Below, one piece after another: positions 14,786 to 42,352 of a stretch of 64,000 nt of DNA. Source of the stretch: Loxodes magnus (taxonomy: Eukaryota; Ciliophora; Karyorelictea; Loxodida; Loxodidae); NCBI GenBank assembly GCA_946699065.1, contig CAMPDV010000257.1, positions 310,001 to 374,000 on the forward strand. Direction: 5' to 3'. Positions within the stretch are counted from its first letter, which is position 1; each line of letters begins with the position of its first letter. Position numbers and translations under genes: made by a program. The notes under the pieces were generated by a model that worked only from the letters and a program-made list of their open reading frames with translations, had not been told where the DNA came from and made no database searches.

Positions 14786-14800
14786 ACTCTATTCATTATA

Positions 14801-15641
14801 ATAATAATAATAATAATATACTTAAAGTTAGTAGAGTTTTGCATTCTCTGGAATTGCAACCAGTTCCTGCGGACAGTTTTTTTAACGTGGGTGTGATCCA
14901 CGACCTTTTTATTAAGTGGAAGGTTACCACTGTAACCGTTCAAGTGGTCTTGCAAAAAGCTTTTATTTGTAGATCCCTGTTGGAGTTATTCATAGTTTAT
15001 TGAGTTGTCTCCATGTTCTTTTCTGCTCTTATTCGTTTATTTTCTTTCATTATCAACAGTTTTTTAAAATATGTTGATTTGATTTGCAACATCAACAAAG
15101 TTTGTATTATTGTCTTTATTTCGTTCTTTTTTATGATAATTTATTTTCTATATTTTCTAATCTTTTAATGAAACTTGTAGCAATCATTTCTTTTTCTGGA
15201 TTCAATTCTGTTTTTAATTCTATTGGTATTTTTTCTATTTCCATTTTTGTGTCGTATTTAAAATTTTATTATGATTAAGTTCAGAGTTATTCTTCCGTTA
15301 TTAATTTGCTACAAATAAGTTATCTTCTAAGTATTAGTAATTTGTTGTTCTAATCTTCTATGTTACTCATTAGTTCCCGTATTTTTTCGCCTAAGTTGTA
15401 AGTTGTTTCTTCATAATTTGAGATTACTTTTTACATTTGGTCTAATTAAATTTAAAGTTTTTGATTAGTTTCGTTTTTAGGTTAACTTATCTCTATTTAT
15501 CCTACCATAACTTTACCTTCTGAAGAAGAGCTTGACTCCTCCTATTGTTATTATTTTTTCTACATTTCTTTTGCCGCTTTTCTCTTTAGGTTTCTAAGTT
15601 AATTTTTTGAGAGTCGAAGAGATTAATCCATTTTTTTCTTC
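14801..15641 (-). mobile_element. ORF1-only retroelement (copy b), complete with 15-bp target-site duplication
   Basis: An 841-bp unit on the minus strand. It begins about 10 bases before its only ATG (15631) and ends in an ATT-repeat tail at 14801-14820. It is flanked by perfect direct repeats ACTCTATTCATTATA at 14786-14800 and 15642-15656. The 3' untranslated part (about 14955-14830) contains inverted-repeat stems (CGTGGATCACACCCACG and CTGGTTGCAATTCCAG); the same arrangement recurs at 45840-45990. It has no RT, endonuclease or LTR. The structure fits target-primed retrotransposition by machinery supplied elsewhere. Confidence 0.88.
14990..15631 (-). CDS. ORF1 (gag-like) coiled-coil zinc-knuckle protein of element b
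   Basis: A single frame, 214 codons from ATG at 15631 to a TGA at 14992-14990. The N-terminal half is basic and Gln-rich, followed by a helical region (N-Y-E-E-T-T-Y-N-L-G-E-K-I-R-E-L) and the zinc knuckle C-W-C-C-K-S-N-Q-H-I-L-K-N-C, a CX2CX4HX4C pattern whose Trp is TGA. Proteins of this layout bind retroelement RNA in LINE and retrovirus-like elements; an RNA-chaperone role is inferred. The chosen TGA is the one nearest the 3' non-coding hairpins, and in-frame TGAs upstream are read as Trp. No frame damage is seen. Confidence 0.75.
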
Positions 15642-15684
15642 ACTCTATTCATTATAAATATCATTATTATATCTACAAATAAAA

Positions 15685-16508
15685 AAATGGTGGAAGGTCT
15701 CAAGAAGGGTTTTTTGCAGGCTCCATAGATAAAGGAGATAAAACCAGAGAATTATAATTCTTCATCCACCATGTTTTCCTTAGTAAAATAATAATTTTCT
15801 TAATATTAATAGCCTCCAATAGTAGAAAATTAAAGGCAATATTAAATAAAATAAGAACTTAAATAAAAAGAAACAGAATAAACAATAATAAGATATTGAC
15901 TTTCTTCCTAAACCAAGACCCAGTAACTATATGAAATCCGATAATGCAAAAACTATGCGAAAACAGAAAAATGAAGAATAATACTAATTGAAACTCTTTT
16001 GAAATATGTTCGAATTCTGTAAGAAGAAGTCAAAATATTAAGGTAAGAAAAAAAATTATTAGAAAAAAGTTAAAATACTGAAGAAAGATTAGACAAATAA
16101 GAAATCGAATTAAAGCAACTTGGACAAAAAAGAATAGAACTTTTAATCTAAGAAATAAAAATGGAAGTAGAAGACGAAATGCAAATAGAAACAACTAATA
16201 TTAGAAGGATTCTCAAGAGATGTTACCTGTGCTAATCAAGATTTCATATTGCAAGAGATGCAAAATATACAAGGAACAGATGAAGAGAAACAGCGAAGAA
16301 TTATGAAGAGAATTAATCAGAATTTATATGACGTTGGACGGAAGAATTTATAGAAATAGAATTTTCCAATCGAGCTCCAGAACTCCGAAAAAACTGGGTG
16401 ACCGAACTTTTATTTTAAGCCTTCAGGAGTGATAACTGGTTGGCAGTTGAAATGAGGTTGAGATTCTTCAAAGCCAAAAAAGCACTTAATTTAGTATATT
16501 ATTATTAT
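15685..16508 (+). mobile_element. ORF1-only retroelement (copy a) with target-site duplication
   Basis: The element starts almost at its ATG and ends in an ATT-repeat tail near 16495-16508. It is flanked by TATAT(C/T)TACAAATAAAA at 15668-15684 and 16509-16525 (17 bp, one mismatch). It lies only about 11 bp from the duplicated target of copy b and in the opposite orientation, so two complete insertions sit back to back. No RT is encoded. Confidence 0.8.
15687..16331 (+). CDS. ORF1 zinc-knuckle protein of element a (knuckle damaged)
   Basis: The open frame from ATG 15687 begins M-V-E-G-L-K-K-G-F-L, matching the M-E-G-F-K-K-G-F start of the copies at 17 and 34 kb. A long helical middle (K-I-L-R-Q-E-K-K-L-L-E-K) leads to C-Y-L-C-Q-S-R-F-H-I-A-R-D-A (about 16218-16259). 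Here the last zinc Cys is replaced by Ala, so the knuckle is probably non-functional. The frame stays free of TAA/TAG stops under the ciliate code, and the last in-frame TGA (16329-16331) is taken as stop. The true end could be another TGA. Confidence 0.6.
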
Positions 16509-16525
16509 TATATTTACAAATAAAA

Positions 16526-16915
16526 TTCTTTTTTATCATAAAGCAGATAAAAATATTATAGAGATAAATCAACGAGAATTCTTATAATTTTAAATATATT
16601 TTAACAAGAAAATATAAAAATTAAATAAATCTAACTAGATAGCTTTGACAATAATATTTAAAAATTATAAGATATATCTAAAGAAGATACATAAATAATG
16701 GAAAATTAAGGATGAATAAAAACTCAAAAAAATTAGTAAATTCCACTATGCAATTATTGCAAGAGGAATTTCAGATAAATAGATAAAAATTTAGCAAGTT
16801 AGTAGATATTAGATTTTATGGAAGAAGATTATGAAGAAGTTAAATAAATGTAATTTTAAATTATCAGATCGGAATCTTATACAGGATTTTAATGAAATTA
16901 TTTTAGCTTGCAAAA
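16526..16915. other. Spacer between two retroelement insertions
   Basis: About 390 bp, AT-rich; no gene or repeat recognised. Confidence 0.4.
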
Positions 16916-16930
16916 ACCATGATAAACTAT

Positions 16931-17889
16931 AATAATAATAATAATAAAATTAAATTTGACAATCTTAGAGGAATTTCATTTCGTTCTGCCGATCGCCAGA
17001 TTGCTCCGGGATTATATAAAAATGTTTAAAAATTTAATCACCTCTCTCTCACTTGATCATATTTTCTTCGGTTTCATCTTTTATTCGGTTCTGATTTCTT
17101 TCTGTAGATCTTGTCAAGTTCATTCATATAAAGTCTTTCTCTATCTCTTCTCTATTACAGTTGATGTTTTTTCCTTTATTGCGCTTGTAGTTTTCTTTGT
17201 TTTGTTCAGTATTAATTCTTGAAACTTAGGAATTTCTTACATCTTCTTCATAAATATTCTCCCGAATTACAATAATAACATCTTTTCTGAATTCTTTTAG
17301 GTTTTCTTGTTTCTTCCTTCTCAATCACCATTAGATCACTTCTTTGCTCATTTTACTCTATTTTTAGTTGCAGTTTCTCTTCTATTTTTTCAAGTCTGTT
17401 GTCCAATTCTGTCTTTTTCTGAAGCTAATTTTGTGATTAGCCCCTCTGATCTTGTGATATGTTCCAAAAAGCGCTTAGTTCTCTTTCCTAGGACATGAGT
17501 CTTGATTCTATTTCTTCTGCTAGGTTAAATTGTTGCATTAGCTTCTCATTGTCCTTCTTTAGCTTCTTGATCTCTTCCTGTAGATTTAGTATCATTTTGA
17601 TGAGCTATTCCATGCTCATTTGGCCAGAAGGATTAAATTCTGATACCTCCTGGAGCAGAGCAGACTTCGTCAGCTTTTTGTGTTTCTCCTGGGACGTTGG
17701 GGTGATTGCATGGGTGATTTTCTTAGATTACTTCTATTCTTCTTGAACCTATGTTCCGGATTATTAAGAAAAAGGTTAGGGTTAAGTAAAAGAAGACTGG
17801 CTGAGAGTGGCTTCTGATTTCCTCTCCTTCTTGGAGGTGGTGTAGAAACCTTTTTTGAAGCCTTCCATTTTTTAATAATTGATATATAT
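16931..17889 (-). mobile_element. ORF1-only retroelement (copy c), complete with perfect 15-bp target-site duplication
   Basis: A 959-bp minus-strand unit with direct repeats ACCATGATAAACTAT at 16916-16930 and 17890-17904. Its 3' end is a TTA-repeat tail (16931-16951). It is a near-identical relative of the plus-strand unit at 34094-35023, differing by small indels and point changes. That fixes the element's length at just under 1 kb, with one gene and no RT. The short 5' leader before ATG (about 20 bp) leaves little room for a conventional promoter. Confidence 0.92.
17038..17868 (-). CDS. ORF1 zinc-knuckle protein of element c (zinc His changed to Tyr)
   Basis: 277 codons from ATG at 17868 to TGA at 17040-17038, in one frame. 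N-terminus M-E-G-F-K-K-G-F-Y-T-T-S-K-K, a Gln/Ser-rich stretch, then a long coiled coil (E-E-I-K-K-L-K-K-D-N-E-K-L and L-D-N-R-L-E-K-I-E-E-K-L), then the knuckle C-Y-Y-C-N-S-G-E-Y-L-W-R-R-C. The zinc-binding His of the family is Tyr here (TAT for CAT; the 34-kb copy has His), while the frame is otherwise intact. The Trp in L-W-R-R-C is TGA. A basic tail of about 70 residues follows. The likely role is RNA binding and multimerisation for element mobility. Confidence 0.8.
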
Positions 17890-17904
17890 ACCATGATAAA
17901 CTAT

Positions 17905-18285: not shown

Positions 18286-18289
18286 ATTT

Positions 18290-19080: not shown

Positions 19081-19585
19081 AATCAATCATTTTAGATTTT
19101 ATCTGTTAGTAAACTTATTTAGTTGTAGTTGAGGAATACTATGTGATAGAAACGAAGGATTACAGATTATTTTTATATTACTTGGTGATCTTTAGTTCCT
19201 ATTATAGCAGTAACTTAATATATTATGAGGAAATTAGACTTATAATATAATAGCTAACTACTTGTTATATCTAAGTTATTTTCTTTTATTTCTCTATTAT
19301 TTTCTTCTTCATTTCCTCTCATTTCTATTGTCCTTACTTTCTAGTATTTATCTTCTTCTACTACTATTGCTATATCTCTACCCATTCATCATTTATAGGT
19401 AAATCTTCAAATCTAAAGTTAAATACCTTATAAAAATATAGCAGCTGATTTGATTCTATAAATAATATTAGTTTTTAAGCATAAACTGCAGAAAGTATGA
19501 AAGTAAGGTAAGATTGTAGGAATAGCGTTAGTTAGGTTAAAAGGATATAAACAGTATTAGCAGAGCTAAATGACTTACATTTTAT
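19081..19585. other. Stretch without a supported gene
   Basis: It may contain the N-terminal part of the broken Kelch gene, but no domain is recognisable. Confidence 0.35.
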
Positions 19586-19587
19586 TA

Positions 19588-19909
19588 TATAAATAAATAG
19601 GGAGGAGCAATCTTCCAACTGAAACTGATCTAAACTCTGGTACTAGGAAGTACCCCATAGGTGAAGAACCAGCCAAGAGAAGACAAGACAAGATCGAAGA
19701 GTCATCAAGTAGCATTAATGACGAAAGATGCCAGATACTAAAGTCTCTTAGGGTAGCATTCCATCACGGTCCTATATAGAAGGCAAAATTCACAAGGAAA
19801 TGCTAGCACAGTGGAAGACTTCAACAAGGAATTTTTTAAATTTAAAATCTTTATTAATGAGCTGCGCACCAATGAGGTGCTTCGCACTCTATAATCTCAT
19901 TTATTTATA
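19588..19909 (+). repeat. R3 repeat (TATAAATAAATA ends, terminal stem-loop), copy 1
   Basis: A roughly 320-bp unit beginning TATAAATAAATAGGGAGGAG and ending with stem-loop GAGCTGCGCACC-AATGA-GGTGCTTCGCACTC, then CTATAATCTCATTTATTTATA. The first and last 10-12 bases are inverted repeats of each other. Close copies lie at 20482 and 43538, a divergent one at 20830, and one in reverse at 33462. No coding frame is conserved between copies. The inverted ends suggest a MITE; the TTTA-type end would also fit a SINE tail. Confidence 0.8.
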
Positions 19910-20481
19910 AAGTTAGCAAATAAAATAGCTAAAATTGTAAATATAACAGTAGATTAGAAAATTAAAATTACAATAAATTAGACTCTTAGTACAAATCAAG
20001 TTAGTCTAATTCTAATCTTACAAATCTAAGTATTTCCATTTCTTTTATACATTAAAATGATACTCCTATATTAACTTCCATTCTCTTTTAATTATCCCAT
20101 ATATATAACAAAAACAATATAAAAAAGATAAATTATAAAGAGTTTATAGATAATTTAATACAAAGGAAAATAAGAAATTATAGCAAATAAGTGAGTATTA
20201 TTGAGTTTATATTAAAGACAAAATTAATATGTTTTTATAACTTATTTAATCAGTAAAGTAAATAAAGATAATAAAATAAGGTTAAAACTTAGGAGTGGAA
20301 ATGAGATTTCTTTATTAATTAAAGCTTCAATATTTTATATTAGATTTATATTTAATTTTAGAATATGAAATTATAAACCTTATAAAATCTCTAAAAACAA
20401 AGCAATCTATTTATTTTAATATTTTTAACTATAAATTTTATTTTTAGATTACAAGTATGTAATTCAATTTATTATATATTA

Positions 20482-20817
20482 TATAAATAAATAGGGAGAA
20501 GTAGTCCTTCAACTGACATTGAATTAAGATCTGGTACAAGGAAGTACCCATGAGTGGAGAGTCGAACGAGAATCTTGGTAGGAGCAAAGAGAGAAGAAAA
20601 AGACTAAAGAGGCATCCAGTAACGTTATTGATGAAAGATACCAGATGCTTAGATCTATTAGGGAAAATTTCAACCACGCCCTAAAGAAGACGAGACTTAG
20701 AAAGAATACTAGCACTGTGGAAGACTTCAGAAAATATCTTTTTAGCTTTAAAAAATTTTTATTAAAGAGCTGCGCGCAATTGAGATGCTATGCGCTCTCT
20801 AATCTTATTTATTTATA
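20482..20817 (+). repeat. R3 repeat, copy 2
   Basis: Starts TATAAATAAATAGGGAGAAG and ends GAGCTGCGCGCAATTGAGATGC ... TTATTTATTTATA. It is very similar to copy 1 throughout, including the internal GAAAGATACCAGATGCTTAG block. Confidence 0.8.
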
Positions 20818-20829
20818 TATAATATTTAT

Positions 20830-21165
20830 TTTAAATAGAGAAAAATAATTCTCCAACTGAGATTGACTTAAACTCTAATATCAGAAAGTACATTATGGGC
20901 GAAGAAAAGAATAAGAATCTTGGCAGGTGTCAAGATAAGATAAGACTAAAGAGGCATCAATTAGCGTTAATTATGAAAGGTACCAGATACTAAGATCTTT
21001 TAGAAAAAGCACTCCGATCATAACCTACAAAAACAAGCCTCATAAAAGAATGGTAGAACTGTGAAATACTTCAACAACCAATTTTTAAACTTTAAAAAAC
21101 TTTATTAAAAAACTGCGTACTATTGAATTGCTAAAATGCTCTTTAATCTTAGTTTCTTTTATATA
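20830..21165 (+). repeat. R3 repeat, copy 3 (divergent), in tandem with copy 2
   Basis: Begins TATTTTAAATAGAGAAAAAT and keeps the family order (AACTGAGATTGACTTAAACT, GGTACCAGATACTAAGATCT, TTAAAAAACTGCG...), but with many changes and a weakened terminal stem-loop. It follows copy 2 within about 15 bp. Confidence 0.65.
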
Positions 21166-21543
21166 TTAAATTTTTAATTTAGTTTAAGGTTTCATTCTTA
21201 ATAATACAAAAACAATTAAATATCTATTTTATACTTTTTAACTTACTTACTGATACAAAATTTATAATTATATTCAATCTATTGATTAATTAGTTCAATA
21301 TAGTATTCAATTAAAAGTTCATTGAGAACTATACCTATTAATTACATTCTATAAAAAACATATATTTAGAAAATTCATCAGAAATTCCAAAAAATGTATA
21401 AAGATTAGTTACTAAAATTTGATATGTAACAATACTAGGAAAAAGCTACTGTAAAAAGAATTAAATATTAAAACGGATAAAAAATAAAATAACCTGCTAA
21501 TAATATTAAGTAGAAGTTTAAACTGAATAATTTTCATTAAAGA

Positions 21544-25190: not shown

Positions 25191-25632
25191 TATTGATAAA
25201 TATGGGGATTAAAATTTAATATGATGATAAAGTTTGAGAATTTAGTCTATAAGATATGTTAAGATATATACCATATATTATCAATTATCTTTCATTTAAA
25301 CAGAATTTGTATTATTATCTACATATCTAGATTAGTTGTAACATAAATTCTATATATTCAAATCCTGATTAATCTGAAAAAAAGTTTATCGATCTTCTAA
25401 ATTTTTATGCTAAATACTTTATTTAATTATTATAAAACCTAACTTTTTTCGTTACAAATCATAAATGGAAAAAAAGCATTCTATTTCTAATATTAAAACT
25501 CATTACTCAATTACTTAAAATAATTTTATATATAATAGAAATAAATTAAGATTGCTACTTTTAAGATATTTCAAATTAATTTTAGCTTTCTGCTAAATGG
25601 TTTTCTGTCAATAAATTAAAAAGTAAAAAAAA

Positions 25633-28023
25633 ATGGACATGCACAAAAATTCGCAAGATTTCTTTCTTAGCGACTCTTCTTTATCTAAAAATAAAGAAAC
25701 TGCTTTCTAAAACGATGAGCATAGGCAGATGTTCAACTACTTTTATGAAATAGACATGGAATTGCTGCAACTTAAATCCGTTGATAATATCATGAAACTA
25801 CTAAGAAATTTGCTAAAGAGCTGCAGTTAATGCCAAATTAATAGATATCTTCGAATTCCACTAAGACGGTTTGGCAATTCTTTAAAACGTGGACATTAAT
25901 TGAAGACTAATCTCAAATATAGGAAATATACTTATAGGTAAAAAGACTAGCTTGTTACTTCAACCTCTACGATGATATCTAAAATATCCTATATACAGTA
26001 AGATACTTTAGATACTTAGGATATTTAAGATATTTCTTTAATTAAAACCTAAAATTAAATTTAAATACAAAATTAATAAGAGAATATAAAAATTCAACAA
26101 TTCAATACACAAAATAACATAAAAAGTCAATAGCAGATTTCAATAGACATTTAAACTGATTACTAAGAGAAGTTTGATATTACATACTTAACTGATCTTG
26201 AGATCTAAAATGGGTAACTTTAAGAAAAAATTGGAAAATTTAAATATAAAATTTAAAGTAAGATAGAAGAGGCAAATACTTTTGAAAATTAAAGGCTAAG
26301 TGAAAGCAAAAATCTTAAATTTCGAATTTAAAAACTCATAACTAAAAATAATTCTCTGTAAGAAAAGCTAATACATATCTATGAGTAACACAATAAAGAA
26401 ACCTTAAACATTAAATCACAATATAAAATACACTTAGAATAATACCAAACTTATTTATTTAAAGCTCAAAAGTAAATTAAGAAAATTTAGAATAAAAATT
26501 AAATCTTAAGGTTTGATAATTAGTAGAGATAGTTAATGCTTTAGTCCAAATAGTTTGTAAATAATGCTACAAATAAATAATAATCAATATAAACGAATAC
26601 TGATCTTTCCTTAACTTAAATATAAGAATTGGAAACTTAGAGTTAACTTCTCACTTAGACTTAATAGCAAAGTATAGAAAAACAAGCTATGCTTAGTGAG
26701 GAGCTAATGAATATGACACTATCATTTAAACTACAAGATGAGGCAATACTTGCTTCCAAGTAAGAAGCCCAAAATATTATAAACAACTTGGTTACTCAAA
26801 TTTAATTCATTCAAGCTGAATTGAGTAAATGTAATTTGAGACATAATGAAGTATAACAACATCTTAGGGAGGTAGAAACTCTTAACTAAAATCTCAAAGG
26901 TGAAAATTTTCATTTATTAAGCAAAATAGATCAGATCGACTAAAAGGTACATTCACTCACAGTCAATTGCCAGTAACAACAGGCTTAGTGTTAATTATTA
27001 CAAAATGAGAATTATTAAATATCATAGGAACTGAGCTTACAAAAAAATAAATATGCCAAATCAATCAAAAGCATTTTTACATAAACAATCACTCCTCAGG
27101 CATAGAATGAATAAACATAAATTGAAATTCAATTCAGCAACTAAATTTCTCAAGCAACTATATCGACTTTAAATTCAACTACTGGTACAGACTTATTATT
27201 CTTAGATCAATCTACCTAGTGCGACTTCGTTGAATTGAAGTATACAAAGTTGTAGAATTTATATGATAAATTAAACAAATAATTTATCAATTAAGATATA
27301 TAGAGTGTCTACTAAAGGCTTATCTCGTGTTAATAAAAATAGTTTTAAGAAAAGGAAACACAAACCTGCTTAAAAATTAATAGCAAAGATGCTTGAATAT
27401 GAACAGAAAAAGGGAAATTAATAAGCAATTATAGTTAGACAAGAATCATGGAGTTAAAGAATTAGGTTATTTAGACTTAAAATTCTATCAATACTAAGGA
27501 TGAAGGAACAATAACAATAGTTACCAATCGTTAGCTAGTTACTTCTTAACAAGAACTATAAATCACAAAATAGAATAATGGAAAACTGTAAGAGTAATAT
27601 AATGAATTAAACGGATTATATGTTTAACTCATGCAGGATTATGAGCATCAAGTAGAATTGAAGCTAAATGTTTATGCATAAATTTCAGAAATATAGAGAA
27701 AATAATAAGATGTTAAAACTCAATCTTACTTGAAAGAAATAAAATGAAATGCTTCAACATAAACACTTTTAATTGATTAAATTTAAGAAGATTAGCAGAT
27801 TGAAATTTTAGAAAATTCAAATAATTAGACATCATATGTGATGAATTGGGATAGCCAAAAAAAATTTGGAAAGAGAAGTTGAAGAGATGCCAAATTTAAT
27901 CAAGACACTTTAAACTTAAAATAGTCAAAATTTGGGTTTAATGAAATAAATATTGAAGAGATTTTAAATAAATACGAATTTAAAGACGCCTAACTAATTC
28001 AATTTATAAGGTCCAATAAATGA
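25633..28023 (+). CDS. Long Gln-rich coiled-coil protein with TQT-type motifs
   Basis: A single open frame of 796 codons from ATG 25633 to tandem TGA-TGA (28021-28026). The N-terminus (M-D-M-H-K-N-S-Q-D-F-F) leads to a compact segment, then about 600 residues of Gln/Asn/Lys/Glu-rich coiled coil (Q-A-M-L-S-E-E-L-M-N-M-T, H-N-E-V-Q-Q-H-L-R-E-V-E). Motifs resembling dynein light-chain LC8 binding sites recur: F-T-Q-T, S-T-Q-C-D, K-E-T-Q-T-C and S-T-Q-T-L. LC8 ligands typically carry a T-Q-T core, so a cytoskeletal scaffold role is possible but inferred. Internal TGAs (in D-A-W-I-W-T-E-K, for example) are Trp. No intron is needed. Confidence 0.7.
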
Positions 28024-28469
28024 TGAAATTAGAATCTTTTCACTTTAGTAGGCAATAGATTTATAATTTTATCTTGCAAACTAAACCATACTACGTGTGA
28101 TGGAAATGAAATAGATATAAAAATCGATAATAAATTGAGCGAAAAGTACGATTCATTGACATTATTCATTATAATAAGTTACAGGTAATATATCAAAAAT
28201 TGCCCCAAATTGCTTAACATATAAATTAATTAAAATGAGAAGATTCTCTGTATTTATGAACCAGGAATAAAAGGAGGAGTTTTGACTTCATCATAAGAAA
28301 TTCATCGACTTATAAAAAACGGAAATTATATAGTTAAAACGCTGCTATAAACTGATTTTAGAATTAACTATATTGTCCTTTAAAAATAACTAAGACTCAA
28401 AGGAGGTGTAGAGAACAATGTAGAATACCATAATAATGCAAACAAGAATTTGGGAATTAAGAAATAAAG
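28024..28469 (+). other. Open region between the coiled-coil gene and the RT gene
   Basis: If the tandem TGA at 28021 were Trp-Trp, the preceding frame would continue through here (for example N-K-L-S-E-K-Y-D-S-L-T-L-F) and overlap the RT start. The part before 28460 may instead be the RT element's leader. Neither can be settled by reading. Confidence 0.35.
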
Positions 28470-31400
28470 ATGCCTATAGATAAGCAAAGAGAGATAGGCA
28501 TAATAAAGCTTGGACATATTAACATAAATGGAATTGGAAGCAAGCAATTAAACGTGGAAGAATTTATACAAAATAATGACTTAGACATTTTCTCAATTAA
28601 TGAAACGTGATAAAAATAAGACTATCCTCCAATACTTATTAATGGATATAAGTCCTATTTCAAGAACTCAGGAAAAGGAGGAGGAGTTTGCTTAATTGTT
28701 AGAGATTAACTTAATAGCACGGAATAGAATAGCATATAACAATTAGCTCAAGAGAGGTTCGTTACAATCAAACTAGATAATATATTCATAACATCTTGTT
28801 ACATGCCAGATAACAGCAAGAGTGAAAATATAAAAGACGAAGCATATGAATATATAAATGTATTCCTTAATTCTTTTCCTGACAACTCACATATATTATT
28901 AGGAGATTTTAACGCTCTACTATAAGGCTTTGGGGATAACCCTATTAACAACTATGACAATACAAATAGATTCTAAGAATTCATTCTCTAAAACGATTTA
29001 GAAATAATAAGCGATGCTAATATGAACACATGCTTACATAAAGGGAATAAAAATATGTATTGCAACGATTATATTGTCATCAGTAATCACTTGAATATGA
29101 ATTAATTTAGAAATTTTCAGGTTCATAATTATAGCTTATTTTCAGATCATATTCCATTCACATTTGAATTTGTATACCATACTCCTCTTCAAACTGAAAA
29201 AATAAAAGTGAGAAAGCACAAAATAAGTAGACTGTAGGATCCTATTGATAGATTTATCTATTAGAATTCATTCAAAGATTAAGTAGAAGTATTCTTCCTA
29301 ATTGATAGAGATAACTTAGAAGGTTAGTACACTTATATTAGAGACTGCATTTAGAAAAATGCAGATTAAGTTTTAGGCTCATTTATCCCAGACCCGAAAT
29401 ATAATAGACTTCCTAAGGACCTCACATAAAAATATATCGAAGCAAAGAGAGCAAATTATTTGTACAAAGAAACTTTAGCATATATAGGGAGGAATAACTA
29501 AGAAATCATTGATCTTCACTAAAGAGCGAACACATTATGAAAAAGCTTTTAGCATCATTTATGAAAATTTAAAAAACAAAAGGCCAAAAACAGATTCCTA
29601 CTCTTCAATGAAACCACAAAAGATATGTTTTCTTAAGCAAAGAAAATACTTAACCCTAGACAAAGAAATTTGATGAACTTAAATAAGGAATTGAAGGACT
29701 AATTTGTAGAAGCATGGGAAAATTAGGTATTTAGCAAGCATTCGAATTTAACTAACCAATAGATTGAACTAAGTAACTAGAAAATAGATGCAATTTATGA
29801 AAATAACATAGAAATTCAAAATTAACCCTTTTCTTACTTATAAAATTTCGATCCTTTTACAATAGAAGAGATTACCTAACTTATAAGTATAATTCCTAAT
29901 GGTAAAGCAGCAGGGCCAGATGGAATAAAAGGAGAACTGCTAAAATATGCAGGATATTATCTAGCGTTGATGCTTCATTCTTTTATAAATAACATGCTTA
30001 GAATTGGAAGGATTCCTGAAGAGCTTAATACTTCTATCATAATCCCCATTTTCAAAAAAGGAAATAAAGACGATTGAAAAAACTGACGCCCTATTTCCCT
30101 TATCAACACTATTTTGAAATTATATGATAAGGCCCTTACGAAGAGACTCTACTCAATAATTTATGAAAGACAGTTAATCCACTCAAGCTAAATGGGGTTT
30201 ATGAAGAACAAATAACCACCTAATAAATATGAGTGATCCAATAAATCATAGATCTTTATCGAAAACAAGCGAAAGGAAAAACTAAACTGATTGCAACTTT
30301 AATTGAAGTAGAGAAAATGTTTGATTCTATTGAAAGAAGAATTCTTTTTAAATAACTAAGAAGAGTCAAATTACCACTAGATCTCATCTTGGCTTTAGAA
30401 TCTTTTTATAATAACTTAACTACTTCCTTTATTATAGACGGAACAAATTCTAAGAAATTGAAATTTAGCAATGGAGTGATGTAAGGAAGTTCGCATGGAC
30501 CTATGCTTGCATTATTATACTATGACATTGTCATTAGACATATAGAAAACAAAGGAGAAATATTAGGCTTCAGATGTGCTAATATTAAGAATAGGTTCAC
30601 TTGTAGAGGTTGAGCTGACGATTTAATCCTATTATCGAACTCATAAAAAAATATGTAGTCTCTTATTAATGAAGCAAACTCCATTTTCAATTAGACATTT
30701 CTTAAAATAAATGTCTCCAAATGCGAAACGATATAGTTTTTAAAAAAGAAAAGCAAAGAAACAAAACTAGACTTAAAAATAGGAGACCAAGCAATAATTT
30801 AGAAACAGCAAGTCACATATTTAGGGGTGATCCTTCACCAAAAGAAGAATCTAATTAACCATTGCAAATACGTTGCTGCAAACTATCTTTCAGCAACTAA
30901 AAAGGCAGTATTTGCATTATCAAGATATAGAAACGTAACACCTTGAAATTTCAAAATGCTTTGTAGACTGTTCACGCTTCCTAAAGCAGAATACGGTGGG
31001 GACTTAATACCTTGGACTGTGCACTATGGAATAAATGGAATTTTGAACAGAATTGAAAAGAGTATGAGGTTAATAGCCAGAAAAGCCTTTTAATCAGCAG
31101 GAAATACGTTTAATGAATCATGCTTTGTAGACCTCAACTGGATGCCATTCAAACACATGATGGCTCTTAAGTATTTCAGGTTTTTCTTTAAGATTAGAAA
31201 TGAAAGCTAAAATCAACCTTATTCATCTATTGGAATATTGTTTGAGAATAATTATAAAGAGGGATATCAATATTATGATGAAGTTTAGAAACTGACCTCA
31301 TTTTATAAAATAGAAATTGATAATAAAGAGCACAATAACAACTTAACTTAATTCAGTAGATATGTGTAGGCATAAATATAAAAGACATATTTTGAATTAG

Positions 31401-31681
31401 CTCTTTCAAGATTCAGCAGAATGTCTACTGCATAAATATATACAGAACAATTTTAAAACCTAAGATAATTCCCCAAAATAACATACACGAAATTAAACAA
31501 AAAATATTTGAAAGAAATAATTTGCATCTATAAGATTAGAAGCCAGTCTTACGCATTTCGAAAGACTTTGAAAGATCGAAATTATATTATTGAAAACCCT
31601 TTTTGTATATGCGGAGAATATGACACTCTCCAACATGTAATGGAATGCATATATTACATTGATATAAGAGAATGATTGGTC
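28470..31681 (+). pseudogene. LINE ORF2: apurinic-type endonuclease plus reverse transcriptase (near-complete, damaged)
   Basis: From ATG 28470. The endonuclease domain has G-H-I-N-I-N-G-I-G, S-I-N-E-T-W, L-L-G-D-F-N and S-D-H-I-P-F, the active-site blocks of LINE AP-like endonucleases. The RT domain follows: N-G-K-A-A-G-P-D-G-I, N-W-R-P-I-S-L-I-N-T, Q-M-G-F, N-G-V-M-Q-G-S-S-H-G-P and W-A-D-D-L-I-L. The C-terminal zinc motif is C-I-C-G-E-Y-D-T-L-Q-H-V-M-E-C (31602-31646). Two defects: a one-base frame change just after Q-M-G-F (about 30203-30213), and the first catalytic Asp of the RT (normally D in D-x-x-K-A-F-D) is Glu in I-E-V-E-K-M-F-D. A short retroelement is inserted after 31681; the rest of the frame resumes at 32640 and ends at TGA 32719-32721. 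It would copy element RNA at a nicked target; this copy is probably dead. Confidence 0.9.
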
Positions 31682-31694
31682 TCCAAAATTGGTT

Positions 31695-32626
31695 TAAATT
31701 AAATTAAAGTGTTAAAGAAGGATCGTCTACTTAAAAGCTTCCTACTTCCCTATCCAACCAATAGGAACTTGATCTCTAGGTGGTCTTCTCCTCCCTTCAC
31801 TGTCAAGTTTTCGGAATGGTTGTCTCTTCATATAGCTTGCTTTCTTCTTATAAATTTCTCCATTCCTGGTTGGGTAAAATTAGGTTAGGTCATTCCATAT
31901 TTTCTATTAAATCTCTTTTCTCTTCCAGCATCGTCTTCATAGGTGGTCTGTTCTCCTGCAGATGTAACATTTTTTCCTAAAATATTTCTCTTTAGTTTGC
32001 TCAATTGACTTATTATTCTCTTATTCGATCTCCATTGGGATAGATTGAATAGCCTATTATTTTACACTTGTCTCTAATTTTTCCAATTCGATATGAATAT
32101 TTTCATTCGATTCGTATAATTGTTCCAGCTGCCTATCGAATTCGTCAATTCTTATATTCATTGCAGCCTGGTTTAAGTTTCTAGGAGCATGGGTTTCATC
32201 ATCTTCTAAATGCTCTTGCTGTTCTTAAGCTAGTTCTTCAATCTGTTTTTCCAGATCTTTATTTTTTCCTATTAATGCTAAGATAAGCTTAGCCATTTCC
32301 TCCTTCGTCATTCCTAAGATTTGTTCTTTATTGAGATCTCCGAGGTCCATGTAGGGGTTGAATGTCCTAATCTAGGCCTGAAAGTTACTAATCTTTTGCT
32401 TCTTGGGAAGGTCCTCAGTCGATATTGTTGCATGTTAGTGTTTCTAGGGTTGTCTGGGGTGTGTTGTTTAGAGTTGCTCCTATATGGTTTAAGAAGAAGG
32501 TTTGGTTTTGGAAGATGACGTGAGGTGTTTAGAAATTTAGGTTTCCTGCTTCCTCTCTTCCTTTTTAGCTTAGAAAGAGGTGGTATAGAAGCCCTTTTGA
32601 AACCTTCTACCATATTTTTTTTATAT
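31695..32626 (-). mobile_element. ORF1-only retroelement nested in the RT gene, 13-bp target-site duplication
   Basis: A minus-strand unit flanked by TCCAAAATTGGTT at 31682-31694 and 32627-32639. Its 3' tail is a TTTAA repeat at 31695-31707. Excising it and one duplicate joins the RT frame as V-S-K-I-G to Q-C-D-I-L-K-L-I-N-Y. Its ORF1 starts at ATG 32613, but a one-base change in the following A-run (about 32598) puts the ATG out of phase with the rest. In the shifted frame it reads K-G-F-Y-T-T-S, a helical region (L-E-K-Q-I-E-E-L-A-Q-E) and the intact knuckle C-Y-I-C-R-R-T-D-H-L-W-R-R-C (about 31975-31930), with the Trp as TGA. Confidence 0.9.
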
Positions 32627-32710
32627 TCCAAAATTGGTTAATGTGATATTTTGAAACTAATAAATTACGATTAACTATATATAAACTATTTTCCTAAGAA
32701 AAAAATAGAA

Positions 32711-33649
32711 ATGGTGGATGAATAAATAAAAATATTCATTCAAATGTTTATCAAAAGGAGGCGAGAAATTCTATAACAAGAGAAAGAAGAAGAGCAATAC
32801 GAGAAATAATAAAAAGAAGCAAATCTAAGAATAGAAAATTTTAATGAAGAGAATGAAGAATAATAAAAACAAGAAAACAAAGAATAAGATGTCCAACAAA
32901 ATTAGATGAAAAATGATGAGGAAGAAGAAGATTGGAACGAAGAGGAAAACGATAGCGAAGATGAAGAAGAAGAAGATTGACAACAGAAAATAGAAAAAAA
33001 TGAAAGTTAGCTTGAAAATGAACAAGAAAGGATATACTTAGAAGAAAAAAAAACCTAAACTAGAAAATTAGTTCTGAAGAGCAATAAACTTGATATATAA
33101 TAACATTTAAAAACAATATAATACCTTCAATTGGAAGAACATATTCTGAAAATTGAAGATACCACAAATTTTTTTAGTTAAATTTAATTTAATCAAGCCT
33201 ATTTAAAATAATATATTACATTAATCAGCTTTATAAATAAGACAGCTATCATATAAATAATTCAAAGGTTAGGGATAATTTTAATTGTATTAGCTATAAT
33301 TAATTTCATTTAAATAATGATATTAATATTCAAATGCTTTAGATATTTAAAATAGATCTTTATTTTCTCTGTAAAAGAGACCTAGTTAATTTCTAAATTT
33401 AGACTTAATTATATATATATTTATTAATTACTAAAATAAAAATTTTTAACGTTTCAATAAATAAATAAATTTATTTAGCTCGTAGTACCTCAATGTGCGT
33501 AGCTCTTTAATAAAGAGTTTTTTTATTCTTTGCTGAACTCTTCCACAGTGCAAGCATTCCCTTGTAAGTTTTATCATCTTAGGGCCGTGATTGGAAAGAT
33601 CCTTAAGAGACCTTAGTATCTGGCATCTTTCATTATTAACGTTACTTGA
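32711..33649 (+). CDS. Acidic coiled-coil protein with C-terminal membrane segment
   Basis: A frame of 312 codons from ATG 32711 to TGA 33647-33649. Residues 1-150 are highly charged with Glu/Asp runs (N-D-E-E-E-E-D-W-N-E-E-E and S-E-D-E-E-E-E-D-W), then a short coiled coil (K-T-I-Q-Y-L-Q-L-E-E-H-I-L-K-I-E). A hydrophobic stretch at about residues 180-212 (R-L-G-I-I-L-I-V-L-A-I-I-N-F-I) looks like a membrane anchor. The last 60 or so codons run through an inverted R3 repeat (from 33462), so the natural C-terminus has probably been replaced or its stop lost. No family recognised. The start overlaps the end of the RT frame. Confidence 0.45.
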
Positions 33650-33775
33650 TACCTCTTCAGTTTTTTTTTCTCTTGGCTTCTATCAAATCTCTTGTTCGAT
33701 TCTTCGCCCTCGGGGTACTTCCTGATACCAGTATTTAACTCGATCCCAGTTGGAAGATTGCTCCTTCCTATTAAA
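33462..33775 (-). repeat. R3 repeat, copy 5 (inverted)
   Basis: The reverse complement carries the family landmarks: GGAAGGAGCAATCTTCCAACT, GATGCCAGATACTAAGGTCT, GGGAATGCTTGCACTGTGGA, and the terminal stem-loop GAGCTACGCACATTGAGGTAC followed by AAATAAATTTATTTATTTATT. The 5' terminal repeat is disrupted. Confidence 0.75.
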
Positions 33776-34081
33776 ATTATTTATATTTTTAATAATGATA
33801 AATAAAAATTAGTATCTTAAATCAAGTAATTTAAATTATAAGTTCTAACTTAAACCTAATACAGTAAATGATTTATAATAAGATAAAAGAATTGTACCCT
33901 TATGATTAAGTTTTAAACAATAATTATCATTTTATTATATAGAAGTTAAAATAGTTAAATATTATATACCTAAAAAAGGCTATAAAGTCCTATTTATTTA
34001 AATTAATATATTTTTAATTAAATCTTCCTAGTTTTATTATTTTTACCTGCTTTAAGCTTTTATTAATTTAAATCTCTTCTT
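33776..34081. other. AT-rich spacer
   Basis: No gene or repeat seen. Confidence 0.4.
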
Positions 34082-34093
34082 TATGATTCTGTT

Positions 34094-35023
34094 CAAAAAA
34101 ATGGAAGGCTTCAAAAAAGGTTTCTACACTACCTCCAAGAAGGAGAGGAAACCAGAAGCCACTCTTCTTTTACTTAACCCTAACCTTTTTCTTAATCCGG
34201 AACATAAATCCAAGAAGAACAGAAGTAATCTAAGAAAATCACCCATGCAATCACCCCAACATCTTAGGAGAAACCCAGAAAGCAGATGAAGTCTGCTCTG
34301 TACCAAGAGGTATCAGAATTTAATCCTTCTGGCCAAATGAGCATGGAATAGCTCATCAAAGTGATACTAAATCTACAGGAAGAGATCAAGAAGCTAAAGA
34401 AGGACAATGAGAAGTTAATACAACAGTTTAACCTAGCAGAAGGAATAGAATCAAGACTCATGTCCTAGGAAAGAGAACTAACCGCTTCTTGGAACATATC
34501 ACAAGATCAGAGTAGCTAATCCCAAAATTAGCTTCAGAAACAGACAGAACTGGACAACAGACTTGAAAAAATAGAAGAGAAACTGCAACGAAAAATAGAG
34601 TAAAATGAGCAAAGAAGTGATCCAATGGTGATAGAGAAGGAAGAAACAAGAAAACCTAAAAGAATTCAGAAAAGATGCTATTATTGTAATTCGGAAGAAC
34701 ATTTATGAAGAAGATGTAAGAAATTCCTAAGTTTCAAGAATTAATACTGAATAAAACAAAGAAAACTACAAGCTCAATAAAGGAAAAAACATCAACTGCA
34801 ATAGAGAAGAGATAGAGAAAGACTTTATATGAATGAACTTGACAAGATCTACAAAAAGAAATCAGAACAGAATGGAAGATGAAGCCGAAAACAATATGAC
34901 TAAGTGAGAGAGAGACGATCAAATTTTTAAACATTTTTATATAATCCCAGAGTAATCCGGCGATCGAAGGAAGAGGTGAAATTCCTCCAAGATTGCCAAA
35001 TTTAATTTTATTATTATTATTAT
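34094..35023 (+). mobile_element. ORF1-only retroelement (copy d) with 12-bp target-site duplication
   Basis: Near-identical to copy c (16931-17889) in opposite orientation. Flanked by TATGATTC(T/A)GTT at 34082-34093 and 35024-35035, with a TTA-repeat tail just before the right duplicate. One ORF1 and no RT. Confidence 0.88.
34101..34990 (+). pseudogene. ORF1 of element d, broken by an 8-bp deletion
   Basis: ATG 34101 gives M-E-G-F-K-K-G-F-Y-T-T-S-K-K as in copy c. Relative to copy c, eight bases are missing after E-A-T (about 34164), shifting the frame; a further 3-base gap follows near 34195. The coiled coil (S-M-E-Q-L-I-K-V-I-L-N-L-Q-E-E-I) and the intact knuckle C-Y-Y-C-N-S-E-E-H-L-W-R-R-C (about 34677-34718) are still readable in the other frame. 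The His lost in copy c is present here. As it stands, the full protein cannot be made from the ATG. Confidence 0.8.
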
Positions 35024-35035
35024 TATGATTCAGTT

Positions 35036-36435: not shown

Positions 36436-36439
36436 TTCT

Positions 36440-38093: not shown

Positions 38094-38193
38094 CCCATTT
38101 GTTTCTAAAGATTCGATTACATAATAGTCTAAGTACCTAAGCGTATGAATCTTAGGAGTGTATATCTTAATTAATATAATTGCCCATATTTAT

Positions 38194-38508: not shown

Positions 38509-38523
38509 ATTGTCCATATTTAT

Positions 38524-39283
38524 AAATATCTTAGGCTTTAAATACTAAATTAAGAATCTTAAAGCATAAAAGAGTAAAATATATCTATCTAAATCCCTTA
38601 ATATTTAGGTAGCTTTCACACGATAATTTAATAATTGATTAACAATTTTAATTTTTAAGCTGATAATATATTATTAGCTTAATAAGCTTGGATTATTTTA
38701 GTTTATTTATTAAATTAAATTTATCTAATCTATTTGTATACAAATTTTTACTTTAAAATGTAAAAAATATCTGCTTTAGTTTGAAAATTATGATTTTTGA
38801 TATTTACTAAGAAAAGTTTGAACAGAGAAATGATATTAAAATATTTCTCTATGCTATTTAAAAAACTAATTCTCAATTCCTATTTCATATTAAATTTAAT
38901 AAAGTTAAATCTAAAGAGTAAATAATGGATAAAGAATGCTAGCACATTTGATTTATTTAATAATGATATGATTAGCTTTAATTATTTTCTATATATTAGA
39001 TTCTTAATAGATTCATTAACTTCTTTGATTATATTTATTTTATTTAGTTATCTTAGATTATTATTAAAGTAATCTTTACCCAAAATACTCTTTTAGTTTC
39101 CAAATATAGTAGAATACATTTAAAAGATAAGATTTAATTATATCTTTTATAATATAAATTTATAATAGCTTTCTCTTTTCTCTTTTATCCTTTTTATTTA
39201 TTTTTATAATACTCTCTTACATCATTATATAACTATTATTTTAACTAACTCTAGTCTATTTTTTTCCTTTTATATTTTATATT
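38524..39283. other. AT-rich intergenic stretch
   Basis: No gene or repeat seen. Confidence 0.45.
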
Positions 39284-39296
39284 ATGAAGCTATTTT

Positions 39297-40355
39297 CAAT
39301 AAAAAATGACTGGCTTCAAGAAGAGTTTTTTTACCACCTCCTCAGAACAGGAGAGAAAATTAGAAGCAAATATTCTCACCACGTCTTCTTCAACTTAACG
39401 CTCTTCTTAATAAAAATAACCAGAACAACAAAATAAATTAGAAGAGCTAATAAAAAATATTAAATCCTACAAATTAAAATAAAGCGGACTTCTTCCATCA
39501 AAGGACAAGTAGGAACTGAGACAAAAATTCAGAACAGAAAAGTTGACACAGCTCTCAACGCCTCCATTGAAAACTGAAAAAAGAGACCACTCAACTGAAT
39601 CGATAAAAATAATAACGAAGAAATAAAAAATAAACGAAGAAGGTAAAGTACGATAATTTAATATAGATCCTATTACCTTTGATTTAGACAACATTGAAAT
39701 ACAACAAATGAACTCTGAATAGATGAAACAGCTGATTCATCTACTTATTAGAAACATAAAAAAACTCGAAGAGGAATTAAACTCCCAGAAGGAAGAGATG
39801 TTTACAATAAGTCAGGATCTGATAAATCATGAAGATGATGACGAAGTCCATATGGTAGACCGAAGAGCTAAAGTCGGAGTCTATGAGTCAATTTAAAATT
39901 TAGAGAATGATATTTGAGTAATGCAAGAGCAAGAATAGAAAAACTAAGTAAAATTAGATTCCAGACTTAAATTAATAGAAGAAAACCTGTAGAAGCTTTC
40001 TTAAGGAACTCCAATGGAAATAGAGAAACAAGAAAAGATATTTCCTAGAGCAAGGAAAAGATGTTACATTTGCAACAGCACTTGACATCTATGGCGAAAA
40101 TGTCCCCAATAGAAAAGAATAAGAATAAATATTTGGAGTAATATTAACTATTAGCAACTGAAATGGCGAGCGACGGAATTCTTCCCATCGGGAAATGGGA
40201 AAATCTGGAAAAAAAAATTCTTAACTCAGACTATTAAAAAGAGAGAAGTCCAGGAAAAAGAGCACAAGGAACGAACATGCAGGAAAGGAGATTTTATGCA
40301 TTTAAAACTTCAATTAGGCCGGAAGGCAAACTGTTATTTTAATGATTAATGATTA
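39297..40355 (+). mobile_element. ORF1-only retroelement (copy e), complete with 13-bp target-site duplication
   Basis: A 1,059-bp unit whose 5' end lies 9 bp before its ATG. Flanked by ATGAAGCTATTTT at 39284-39296 and 40356-40368. The tail is built of ATGATTA units (40341-40355). One intact gene and no RT. Confidence 0.9.
39306..40352 (+). CDS. ORF1 coiled-coil zinc-knuckle protein of element e (intact)
   Basis: 349 codons from ATG 39306 to TGA 40350-40352 with no frame damage, the best-preserved ORF1 here. N-terminus M-T-G-F-K-K-S-F-F-T-T-S; central coiled coil (Q-L-I-H-L-L-I-R-N-I-K-K-L-E-E-E-L); knuckle C-Y-I-C-N-S-T-W-H-L-W-R-K-C (about 40060-40101), in which the first Trp is TGA and the second TGG; basic tail of about 80 residues with further Cys. 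It corresponds to gag or LINE ORF1 proteins that coat element RNA. The stop falls inside the tail repeat, so tail and stop are one sequence. Confidence 0.85.
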
Positions 40356-40499
40356 ATGAAGCTATTTTATTAGAAAAAGAAGAACTTAATATTTAAAAAC
40401 TAAATAAATGTTCATTAATAATAGCCTTAGTTATAAGTATTTATAATATGCTTAAGTTACAATAATATCATTAAAAAGGTGTTTTTCCTTTATTTATGT

Positions 40500-41450
40500 C
40501 TCTCTATTTTTAAGTTAGTATCTTTATAAATTTTTCTTCTTTGCTTTCCTTTAAATCCTTCTTGACATTCGAATATATAAACTTACTTCAGTTGGATTTA
40601 ATTTTAAGTGTATCTTATGTAATTTAATTGATTAGCTGTTTTGTATAATTTCAGTTTATTGAGTTAGCTATAAGTATAAGTTTCGCTTTATCTTTGAATT
40701 TTAAGTCTAAATGATTTAAAGTTTACTTTTAAAGTCTTTTAAAAAAACAATTAGTTCATCGAATTCTTATCCATATATAGAATATTTAAGTAAGCATAGC
40801 TTACATATATTGAGCGTGTATTGGAATTATAAGACTTTCTTCTAGTAAATCTCTTTTTAAATCTTTTCTTTCTGCAGCGTTAATGTTTAGAACTATTAAC
40901 TATCTTTTTTTCGTTGAAATGAAAAAGCCTATTTTAACAATAAGCTTGACTCTTTGAGATTGGGATATCTCAAAATGTCCTAACTTAATTTTCTACTCTT
41001 CTTAAAACTAAAAATTATAATAATTATTAACTTTTAATGCTAAGCATATAAAATGGATATTCTGCTTATCAATATATGAAAAGAGGACATCAATATTAAT
41101 GAATGCATTCTCCATATTTTTAAATTCAACTCCTACCATGTTTGGATAATTATCCGAATATATTCCTTTTAAGAAATTGGTTCCAACTAGTAACCTTTCT
41201 GCATTTTAGTGATATAACCCCACGATTAAAAATCTTACTACTGTCATTCTATTGATTATCTCTCTCCTTAAAATGATTGTCAGTTGGTTAGTATTGTAAG
41301 CAGCTTCAGATACTAATTGCTTATATTTTAGAAGATAAGATCATTTAGAAATAAGGATTTTACTTATAGTTAATTACTTTATGTTCTAAGCCTTAGAGTT
41401 AATTTATAGGCTAAGATTGTTTAAAATACTTTTTATTCAAATATATTAAA
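40500..41450 (-). pseudogene. LINE reverse transcriptase, decayed core fragment
   Basis: The minus-strand frame reads N-M-V-G-V-E-F-K-N-M-E-N-A-F-I-N-I-D-V-L (about 41140-41080), aligning with RT motif A and the following helix (I-A-T-L-I-E-V-E-K-M-F-D-S-I-E in the better copy). The catalytic Asp and the second Asp are both lost. A helical segment follows that ends K-L-I-V-K-I-G-F-F-I. No element ends were found. It lies just 3' of the ORF1 element at 41599-42339 but is outside that element's target-site duplication. Confidence 0.5.
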
Positions 41451-41598
41451 GAAAATCTGGAAGTGTTTACTAATATCTAGCTACTGAAAATAAATAACTT
41501 GGAAATCTGACTGATATGGGTATAATTTGTTATATGAACGAATATTCAATAATTATTCAGAATATAAGCAAAGTCTTAACATTGGATAATAATATAAT

Positions 41599-42339
41599 AA
41601 TTAATTATAGTGATCCCACCTATCATTAAGGTTCGTCACTTTTTAAAGTTTAATAGTTTTGTTAAAATTTCCATTTCCAGTCTTCTTCTGGGTCTTCTTC
41701 TTGAAGCACATATCTATCTGTGCTGTGTTCTCCCTTTTTTATTTTCGTAATCTTGCTTCAATCAATCTTCATTCCAAGCATTTGTTCATTTCTTCTTTGT
41801 CCTGCTATAATCACGTCTTCTAGAATTTCATGCCCTGCGTACATCTTTCTTCTATAAATTCTTCCTTCCGCAGTGCAATATAGTTTACTTATGGTTCTTC
41901 ATAGCTTTAAATTTTCTGCTTTCTGTTTTTATTGGAATTAGAAGCAGTTTCTAACTTTGTGTCCTGGTCTCTTGCAGTATCAGCATCGCAGTATTTTCCT
42001 ATAGGGAATATCTTTTATTGCAGGCTGTTTCTCCACATCCATAGGATCATTCCCCTGTATATTTTGCAAAAATATGCTTTCAGTTAGTTCTGCGAATTAG
42101 TAGAATTTTTTCTCTAGCTCTTCTATTTTATTGTTTCCTGTCTATTTATTTTAATTTTTCATTTATTCTTATTAATTGTACATCAGGTGCTCTATTTTTC
42201 TTTCTAGTTCTTGAACTGTTCTTAGGAGGTTGAAATTTTCTTATTACAGCAATTGGAGTGCTTAAAATATATTTTATTGCTCGTAAGATGAATCCTTTTG
42301 AGAAGAGGTTTTTTATAAGAAGTTTTCCATTTTTTTATC
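41599..42339 (-). mobile_element. ORF1-only retroelement (copy f) with 13-bp target-site duplication
   Basis: A minus-strand unit of about 740 bp, the shortest of the class. Flanked by ATAATAATATAAT at 41586-41598 and 42340-42352; the target is simple sequence, so the duplication is less decisive than in copies b, c and e. It starts about 10 bp before its ATG and ends TAATGATAG... with an ATTAATT-type tail. Confidence 0.75.
41623..42330 (-). CDS. ORF1 zinc-knuckle protein of element f (intact)
   Basis: 236 codons, ATG 42330 to TGA 41625-41623. M-E-N-F-L-Q-K-T-S start; short coiled coil (L-L-R-T-V-Q-E-L-E-R-K-I-E-H-L); N-D-P-M-D-V-E-K before the knuckle C-W-Y-C-K-R-P-G-H-K-V-R-N-C (about 41972-41931), a textbook CX2CX4HX4C whose first Trp is TGA. 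A long mixed tail ends E-E-D-W-K-W-K-F. The divergence from copies a, c, d and e marks a separate subfamily. Intact. Confidence 0.82.
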
Positions 42340-42352
42340 ATAATAATATAAT

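Follow-up and report, generated by a model that had tools for sequence, protein, structure and literature searches.

How does a retroelement that carries a single open reading frame (ORF) and no reverse transcriptase (RT) move through a genome? The question is raised by a 64,000-nucleotide stretch of the ciliate Loxodes magnus (positions 310001-374000 of contig C257, hereafter the window). An original prediction on this DNA had proposed that gag-like zinc-knuckle genes and RT genes are here mobilised as separate elements. We searched the window and the assembly to which it belongs (705,730,643 bases in 7,843 contigs) and found that the zinc-knuckle units are probably non-autonomous retroposons without long terminal repeats (non-LTR), which code for an ORF1 protein and are moved in trans by the endonuclease and RT (EN-RT) of resident long interspersed nuclear elements (LINEs).

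The macronuclear assembly of Loxodes magnus has been described as 706 Mbp in size, with abundant LINEs and a genetic code in which TGA is read as tryptophan or as stop (PMC11441545). We counted 7-9 TGA, 3-5 TAG, and 6-9 TAA codons in frame per first RT match. The standard code was rejected because TAA, TAG, and TGA occur inside RT and ORF1 matches, and NCBI table 27, in which we take TAA and TAG to be glutamine, was used for translation. Because all three standard stops occur within genes here, an open frame alone proves nothing. The GC content across the stretch is 19-31% in 2-kb windows.

Nine ORF1-only units in the window

Using table 27 translation, tblastn, and a hidden Markov model (HMM), we identified nine units (E1 to E9) that encode an ORF1 with a coiled coil and a CCHC motif and lack an RT (Table 1). 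The HMM detects six of the nine at E < 1e-4; E7-E9 were detected by tblastn only. The units are about 0.5-1.06 kb in size. To find target-site duplications (TSDs), the flanks of each unit were compared with shuffled and random flanks of the same window. TSDs were found to bound eight of the nine units (p 0 to 0.003 against random flanks for seven, 0.025 for E5), with a matched length of 13-16 bp except in E2, where it is 26 bp, including part of the repeat and two mismatches. Together with the 3' simple-repeat tails and one 5'-truncated unit (E9), these are hallmarks of non-LTR retroposons. The E3 and E5 DNA sequences are 92% identical. E6 is inserted into the LINE that we denote LINE W, and its target is empty in other copies: all seven that were fetched read straight through. 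The original prediction had claimed at least seven single-ORF zinc-knuckle units, which agrees with the nine found here, and the limits that it gave (14801-15641, 16931-17889, and 39297-40355) coincide with E1, E3, and E4 within a base. The TSDs and the empty site for E6 support its further claim that these are complete elements and not cut-down LINEs.

Table 1 Features of the window (positions counted from its first letter).
Feature	Position	Strand	TSD and remarks
E1, complete ORF1-only retroposon, (TTA)n tail	14802-15641	-	TSD TTATAATGAATAGAGT at 14786-14801 / 15642-15657, p 0.003
E2, ORF1-only retroposon, (TTA)n tail, 5' stem-loop leader	15685-16499	+	TSD 15659-15684 / 16500-16525, p 0.002
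E3, ORF1-only retroposon, (TTA)n tail, 5' stem-loop leader	16931-17889	-	TSD ATAGTTTATCATGGT, 0 of 1000
E6, ORF1-only retroposon within 3' part of LINE W	31695-32626	-	TSD AACCAATTTTGGA, p 0.001
E5, sister copy of E3	34094-35022	+	TSD TTATGATTC(T/A)GTT, weaker: p 0.025 random, 0.076 shuffles
E4, ORF1-only retroposon, 347-residue coiled-coil/CCHC ORF1	39297-40355	+	TSD ATGAAGCTATTTT, p 0.002
E7, diverged ORF1-only unit	41599-42339	-	TSD ATTATATTATTAT, p 0.002
E8, diverged short ORF1-only unit	43883-44407	-	TSD ACTATTAAGATAAATA, p 0.001
E9, 5'-truncated, E1-type 3' end, (TAA)n tail	45756-45990	+	no TSD found
5' stem-loop leader of E2	15683-15760	+	
5' stem-loop leader of E3	17804-17872	-	
5' stem-loop leader of E6	32532-32619	-	
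5' stem-loop leader of E5	34097-34167	+	
5' stem-loop leader of E4	39302-39375	+	
LINE W, two-ORF LINE, about 6.6 kb without E6	25626-33190	+	no TSD found for window copy
LINE W ORF1 frame	25633-28479	+	949 codons as read to EN start, Q-rich, no CCHC
LINE W EN-RT (ORF2)	28474-31694	+	frame changes near 30230; E6 interrupts 3' end
RT fragments	about 2430-2558, 7750-8284, 13049-14057, 44677-45807, 47210-48067		pieces, not full elements
SINE-like repeats, about 320-390 bp	19583-19909, 20467-20834, 20805-21181, 43515-43893	+	
SINE-like repeat, about 320-390 bp	33418-33805	-	
126-bp (42-codon) repeats	2974-3362, 6720-6957, 9767-10628		

ORF1-only families beyond the window

Searching the assembly with the E4 protein gave at least 117 scored matches (E 1.8e-210 to 1.6e-137). 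Eight loci were sampled: L029, which is the window copy, and seven more, among which L032 and L034 represent a single locus in two copies. They hold units of about 1.05 kb that are 96-98% identical in the comparisons printed. The flanks are unrelated, except for L032/L034, and the similarity among copies ends at the unit limits. Significant TSDs were found in four of the seven copies outside the window, or in three of six independent ones if L032/L034 is counted as one duplicated locus. For the E1 protein, all 144 scored matches listed are nearly full-length (263-265 of 265 residues) and score 469-482 bits (window copy 480), and perfect TSDs of 13-16 bp lie directly behind the (ATT)n tail in all five family copies checked at both ends. 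The E3/E5 protein gave at least 150 matches, with identities of 94% (itself), 83%, and down to 52% over most of its 253 residues. Because the E1 matches are nearly equal and the E3/E5 identities spread down to 52%, the E1 family is apparently very young, while E3/E5 looks like another ORF1-only family with a deep history. The figures of 10157 for E4, 18132 for E3, 13103 for E1, 17772 for the LINE W RT, and 2659 for the LINE A ORF1 are numbers of search seeds, not copy numbers.

In a genome of this composition, where every frame is open, AT-rich simple repeats could produce spurious TSDs and frames, and the units might be a misreading. The p-values of the TSDs against random flanks of the window and the perfect TSDs at five more E1 loci argue against this, as do the empty site of E6 and the coincidence of E4-copy similarity with the unit limits; the chance that the units are artefacts is negligible.

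The ORF1-only protein retains its CCHC core

Each ORF1-only protein has one zinc knuckle. The CCHC motif is intact in E1, E4, E5, and E6; in E3 a Y replaces the H, and in E2 the last C is lost. An alignment of 13 units from the window and the other loci shows no variation at K251, C253, and W277 and very little at E240 and C256, and the CCHC core is retained between families that are only 20-37% identical. An AlphaFold2 model of the ORF1 was poor (mean predicted local distance difference test score 54), with a long helix at 137-232 and only two short strands. Pfam gave nothing above cut-off for two ORF1-only proteins and the ORF1 of LINE A, a second LINE described below, and a protein database search with the E4 ORF1 and alignment A1 found no homologue at E <= 0.001.

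We calculated a ratio resembling that of nonsynonymous to synonymous change (dN/dS). In the best-scoring copies, a choice favouring intact ones, it was 0.50 when all pairs among the eight E4-family loci were pooled and 0.45 for E3/E5, compared with 0.67 and 0.81 in the two wrong frames. This weak but concordant signal, read from sequence comparison, suggests that selection acts on the ORF1-only protein.

No RT linked to the ORF1 among the listed matches

The linkage counts and RT comparisons given here concern the best-scoring RT matches among those listed, from which rare links could escape. No listed RT was found on the same strand within 8 kb downstream for any of the 150 E3, 144 E1, or 117 E4 matches listed (for E1, the RT list lacked nine entries). 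As internal controls, the same test linked an RT to 37 of 118 LINE A ORF1 matches and 20 of 40 LINE W ORF1 matches. For a single E4 match (C1271), an RT lies 5 kb away in the opposite orientation. Comparison with 150 W-group RT places, many of which are the same W copies, likewise gave no link for E1 (0/144) or E4 (0/117); on C30, an RT is followed at 1.9 kb by an E1 copy in the same orientation.

When the eight E4 loci and 1.5 kb to either side of each were searched by tblastn with LINEs A, B, C, and W, no enzyme was found on the strand of the unit; the only signals were the leader in common with LINE A and opposite-strand W pieces in L030 and L035. We also took 20 loci, of up to 10 kb each, around RT matches. 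Strong ORF1-only units were present in four of them (L010, L018, L020, and L028) and tblastn matches in L016, L019, L021, and L024. In these eight loci no unit lies between the LINE start and the RT on the same strand: the units are on the other strand in L010, L018, L028, and L019 (the last placed by strand, the limits of its element not being fixed), downstream in L016 and L020, and upstream of the LINE A start in L021 and L024. Thus, among the cases examined and the RT matches listed, no full-length element was found to join the same ORF1 to an RT within one pair of TSDs, the arrangement that the original prediction had singled out to be looked for.

LINE W has its own ORF1

The original prediction also held that RT genes in the window stand alone and that ORF1-only elements are dominant. 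Neither claim was upheld: the main RT of the window belongs to LINE W, an element of about 6.6 kb with an unrelated long ORF1 of its own, and nine ORF1 units stand against six RT places. In all 39 other scored copies, LINE W starts at 25610-25626 and its ORF1 segment is 98% identical. Fetched copies are 98-99.8% identical, the tail is AGTTAAA(TTTAA)n, and a significant TSD, with 14-24 bases matched, bounds four of five copies outside the window. At E <= 10, the ORF1-only profile did not match the LINE W ORF1.

These data bear on whether the dependence is reciprocal, such that LINEs without a zinc-knuckle ORF1 (e.g. W) need the ORF1-only protein while the units need the LINE enzyme. The lack of a CCHC motif in the LINE W ORF1 frame would fit, as would the agreement between W and E4/E6 in tail repeat and TSD length and the presence of young copies in both LINE W and the units. 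However, an ORF1 segment that is 98% identical in 39 other scored copies is not like half of a pair, and no sign of LINE W depending on the units was seen, making reciprocity unlikely. Since LINE W has its own ORF1, nothing indicates that LINEs need ORF1-only units, and one-way dependence explains the data better. Of the split system first proposed, the complete and recently mobile ORF1-only elements, in several families, are retained, but the partner RT-only half is not, as LINE W has two ORFs.

Other RT sequences were noted in the searches. The fragment at 13049-14057 is a diverged W-like RT, and the search revealed further W-group RT families (36-48% identical, self excluded), which are possible candidate helpers of the (TTA)n units. 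The fragment at 45807-44677 (minus strand) belongs to a third LINE family, C, found in the fetched loci L015 and L022; these two are 96% identical over 9.5 kb and are probably a segmental duplication. Nine RT matches on C5131, at a spacing of 2,501-2,532 bp, and three on C20, at 2,532 bp, are tandem arrays of a 2.5-kb RT-bearing unit.

A 5' stem-loop leader is common to LINE A and several units

LINE A is 5.5 kb long, and its full-length copies are 96-98% identical, with L018 at 87%. Its ORF1 has one CCHC motif; compared with the ORF1-only profile, it matched along a 20-column CCHC stretch only, with a probability of 0.2%. The same stem-loop opens LINE A copies, E2-E6, and the E4-family copies. 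Its structure, derived from the same ten sequences on which it was scored and thereby favoured, has 16 pairs with 89.6% of cells paired, compared with 40-62% when slid. Both partners have changed in seven of the pairs. Shuffles gave 3.0 +- 1.2 such pairs, and seven were reached in 2 of 500, which makes a mere coding effect unlikely; a further measure, of pair types, was not above shuffles. Scanning 332 kb with a covariance model of the leader gave 26 matches at E < 1e-6, each of them at the 5' end of a LINE A copy or an ORF1-only unit, although two duplicate places in the window and many belong to the training set or are closely related to it. The model had no match in E1, E7, and E8. By eye, the E1-type unit of L028 has a different possible 5' hairpin near 9170-9200 (minus strand; CGCC TTTCC .. 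GGAAA GCGGCG).

For the TSD test of LINE A, 12 loci were taken, and L016 and L017 were left out because their 5' ends were off pattern. None of the ten testable copies (L009, L011, L014, L018, L021, L023, L024, L025, L027, and L028) had a significant TSD, possibly reflecting another mode of second-strand cleavage or target deletion. As its 3' end also differs from those of the units, LINE A is less likely to be their helper.

The leader is in common with LINE A, but the ORF1 and the 3' end are not, which suggests that RNA ends are exchanged between elements. The same observations bear on origin. The units could have arisen as deletion derivatives, in the manner of mammalian HAL1, by loss of ORF2 from a two-ORF LINE with the same ORF1; that LINE would have died out, become rare, or escaped the search. 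Such a history bears on origin only and is compatible with mobilisation in trans today. HAL1 arose several times from L1 (PMC5753468), five window units and the E4 copies have the leader of a two-ORF LINE, and the RT search covered best-scoring matches. Nevertheless, the LINE A ORF1 resembles the profile in its short CCHC stretch only and the LINE W ORF1 not at all, none of the 411 scored ORF1 matches has a same-strand link to a listed RT, and a common leader without a common ORF1 fits 5'-end exchange better than simple deletion. We regard such an origin as possible but doubtful.

3' ends and tails

On the 3' side, E1, E9, and the L028 unit are alike (z 7-18), E3/E5 are weakly like E1 and the L028 unit (z 4.6-6.4), E5 is like E8 (5.6), and E4 is like the L018 unit (z 15). 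The alignment set the stems of the 3' hairpins of E1, E2, E3, E5, and E9 out of register. E4 and E6 have TTTAA-type tails, as in LINE W. The comparison of 3' tails advised by the original prediction found W and E4/E6 alike in tail repeat, with W above z 4 in no pair with a unit.

The 3' side of LINE A is like that of repeats resembling short interspersed nuclear elements (SINEs) (z 15, at 19780-19905; the repeat at 43515-43893 likewise by eye). LINE A and these repeats are a LINE-SINE pair with a common 3' end. Two odd pairs, E4-SINE (5.8) and E7-SINE (5.3), were also seen. Elsewhere in the window, the 126-bp repeats, which by eye we take to be WD40-like, are dispersed genes or gene fragments of one family. 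An Rfam scan of the window gave nothing at the gathering cut-off, and no whole tRNA genes were found in the window scan.

The tails also bear on the idea that the units are retrocopies of a host CCHC-protein gene, captured repeatedly by LINE enzymes. TSDs and 5' truncation are, from general knowledge, found in processed pseudogenes too. The tails here are (TTA)n or TTTAA repeats rather than poly(A), though, and five units begin with the leader of LINE A. The existence of several diverged families and the lack of a homologue in the protein database at the threshold used also speak against a host gene, so we consider this origin very improbable.

How the units may be mobilised

We propose that the EN-RT of a resident LINE would take the RNA of a unit as template and insert the copy by target-primed reverse transcription. 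Because tail repeat and TSD length agree, a W-group LINE is the best candidate for the helper of the TTTAA-tailed units E4 and E6. The ORF1-only protein most likely binds its own RNA, presumably in cis, and would form the particle to which the LINE enzyme is recruited. The 5' stem-loop may serve as a promoter or as an RNA-processing or translation element.

Several observations weigh against mobilisation in trans of a protein-coding unit. TSDs were sought and not found for E9 or the window copy of LINE W, and were not significant in three of the seven E4 copies outside the window and in one of the five other LINE W copies. The 3' end of LINE W reaches at most z 4 with every unit, so that its likeness to E4/E6 consists of tail repeat and TSD length only, and among the best-scoring RT matches no LINE was found with a (TTA)n tail and the 3' end of E1, E2, E3, and E5. 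A rare autonomous parent could be missed among best-scoring RT matches, and the dN/dS ratios, calculated from the best-scoring copies, differ only modestly between frames.

A broader history can be put forward tentatively. The units may form a long-lived superfamily of protein-coding parasites, at no time tied to a single LINE, whose members retain their own RNA-binding protein for long periods while swapping the RNA ends used for transcription and recognition and changing enzyme supplier over time. A changing supplier is suggested by the 5' leader that they share with LINE A and by their 3' tails of W type or (TTA)n type.

Comparison with known systems

LINE A and LINE W may correspond to LINEs in the Loxodes magnus genome study; the sections of that paper covered here do not mention ORF1-only units, and the word 'zinc' occurs 0 times in its main text, supplements being outside this scope (PMC11441545). 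ORF1-only units may explain part of the unclassified repeats in this genome. Within the literature covered, which did not extend to subscription journals and supplements, we found no report of ORF1-only elements in ciliates.

Non-autonomous retroposons are usually non-coding. SINEs are of this kind, whereas the Loxodes units keep a protein core across families. Enzyme-less elements that keep an ORF1 are few (HAL1 and HeT-A), and the benefit of keeping it is unsettled. The presence in one genome of diverged families beside LINEs with unrelated ORF1s makes the effect of the ORF1 separable from descent. The system thus allows two direct questions: does the ORF1 protein serve, in cis, the RNA that encodes it, and is the enzyme chosen by the 5' or the 3' end of the RNA?

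HAL1 of mammals, to which the original prediction had likened the units, is also a non-LTR element with ORF1 only, lacking an RT and presumed to use LINE machinery (PMC5753468, PMC4161310). As in HAL1, no EN or RT lies inside the TSDs of the Loxodes units. The likeness holds in logic but not in descent: HAL1 derives from L1 (PMC5753468), whereas the Loxodes ORF1 is homologous to neither of the LINE ORF1s compared (A and W). The Loxodes protein looks like a coiled coil with a CCHC motif and occurs in several diverged families. L1 ORF1 combines a coiled coil with an RRM.

HeT-A of Drosophila telomeres likewise has Gag only and no pol, uses the enzyme of another element, and is of unclear origin (PMC5537684). 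It adds to chromosome ends in head-to-tail arrays, whereas the Loxodes units are scattered in either orientation and have TSDs. TAHRE is a relative of HeT-A with both gag and pol; no such element was found for the Loxodes units among the best-scoring RT matches. HeT-A Gag has three zinc knuckles.

Trypanosomatid Pr77 elements (L1Tc and kin) have a short 5' sequence common to autonomous and non-autonomous members, with promoter and ribozyme roles (PMC4035085, PMC4748587, PMC8190864). The Loxodes leader is another stem-loop, known here from its sequence, with no Rfam match at the gathering cut-off. To our knowledge, the non-autonomous elements of trypanosomes lack an ORF1 of the Loxodes kind. 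TR-GAG elements of plants are non-autonomous and named for keeping GAG, but they are LTR retrotransposons, and no LTRs were seen on the Loxodes units. With no enzyme-bearing parent found among the best-scoring RT matches, what is new here is that several ORF1-only families, old as well as recently moving, occur in a ciliate, such elements being known from mammals and flies.

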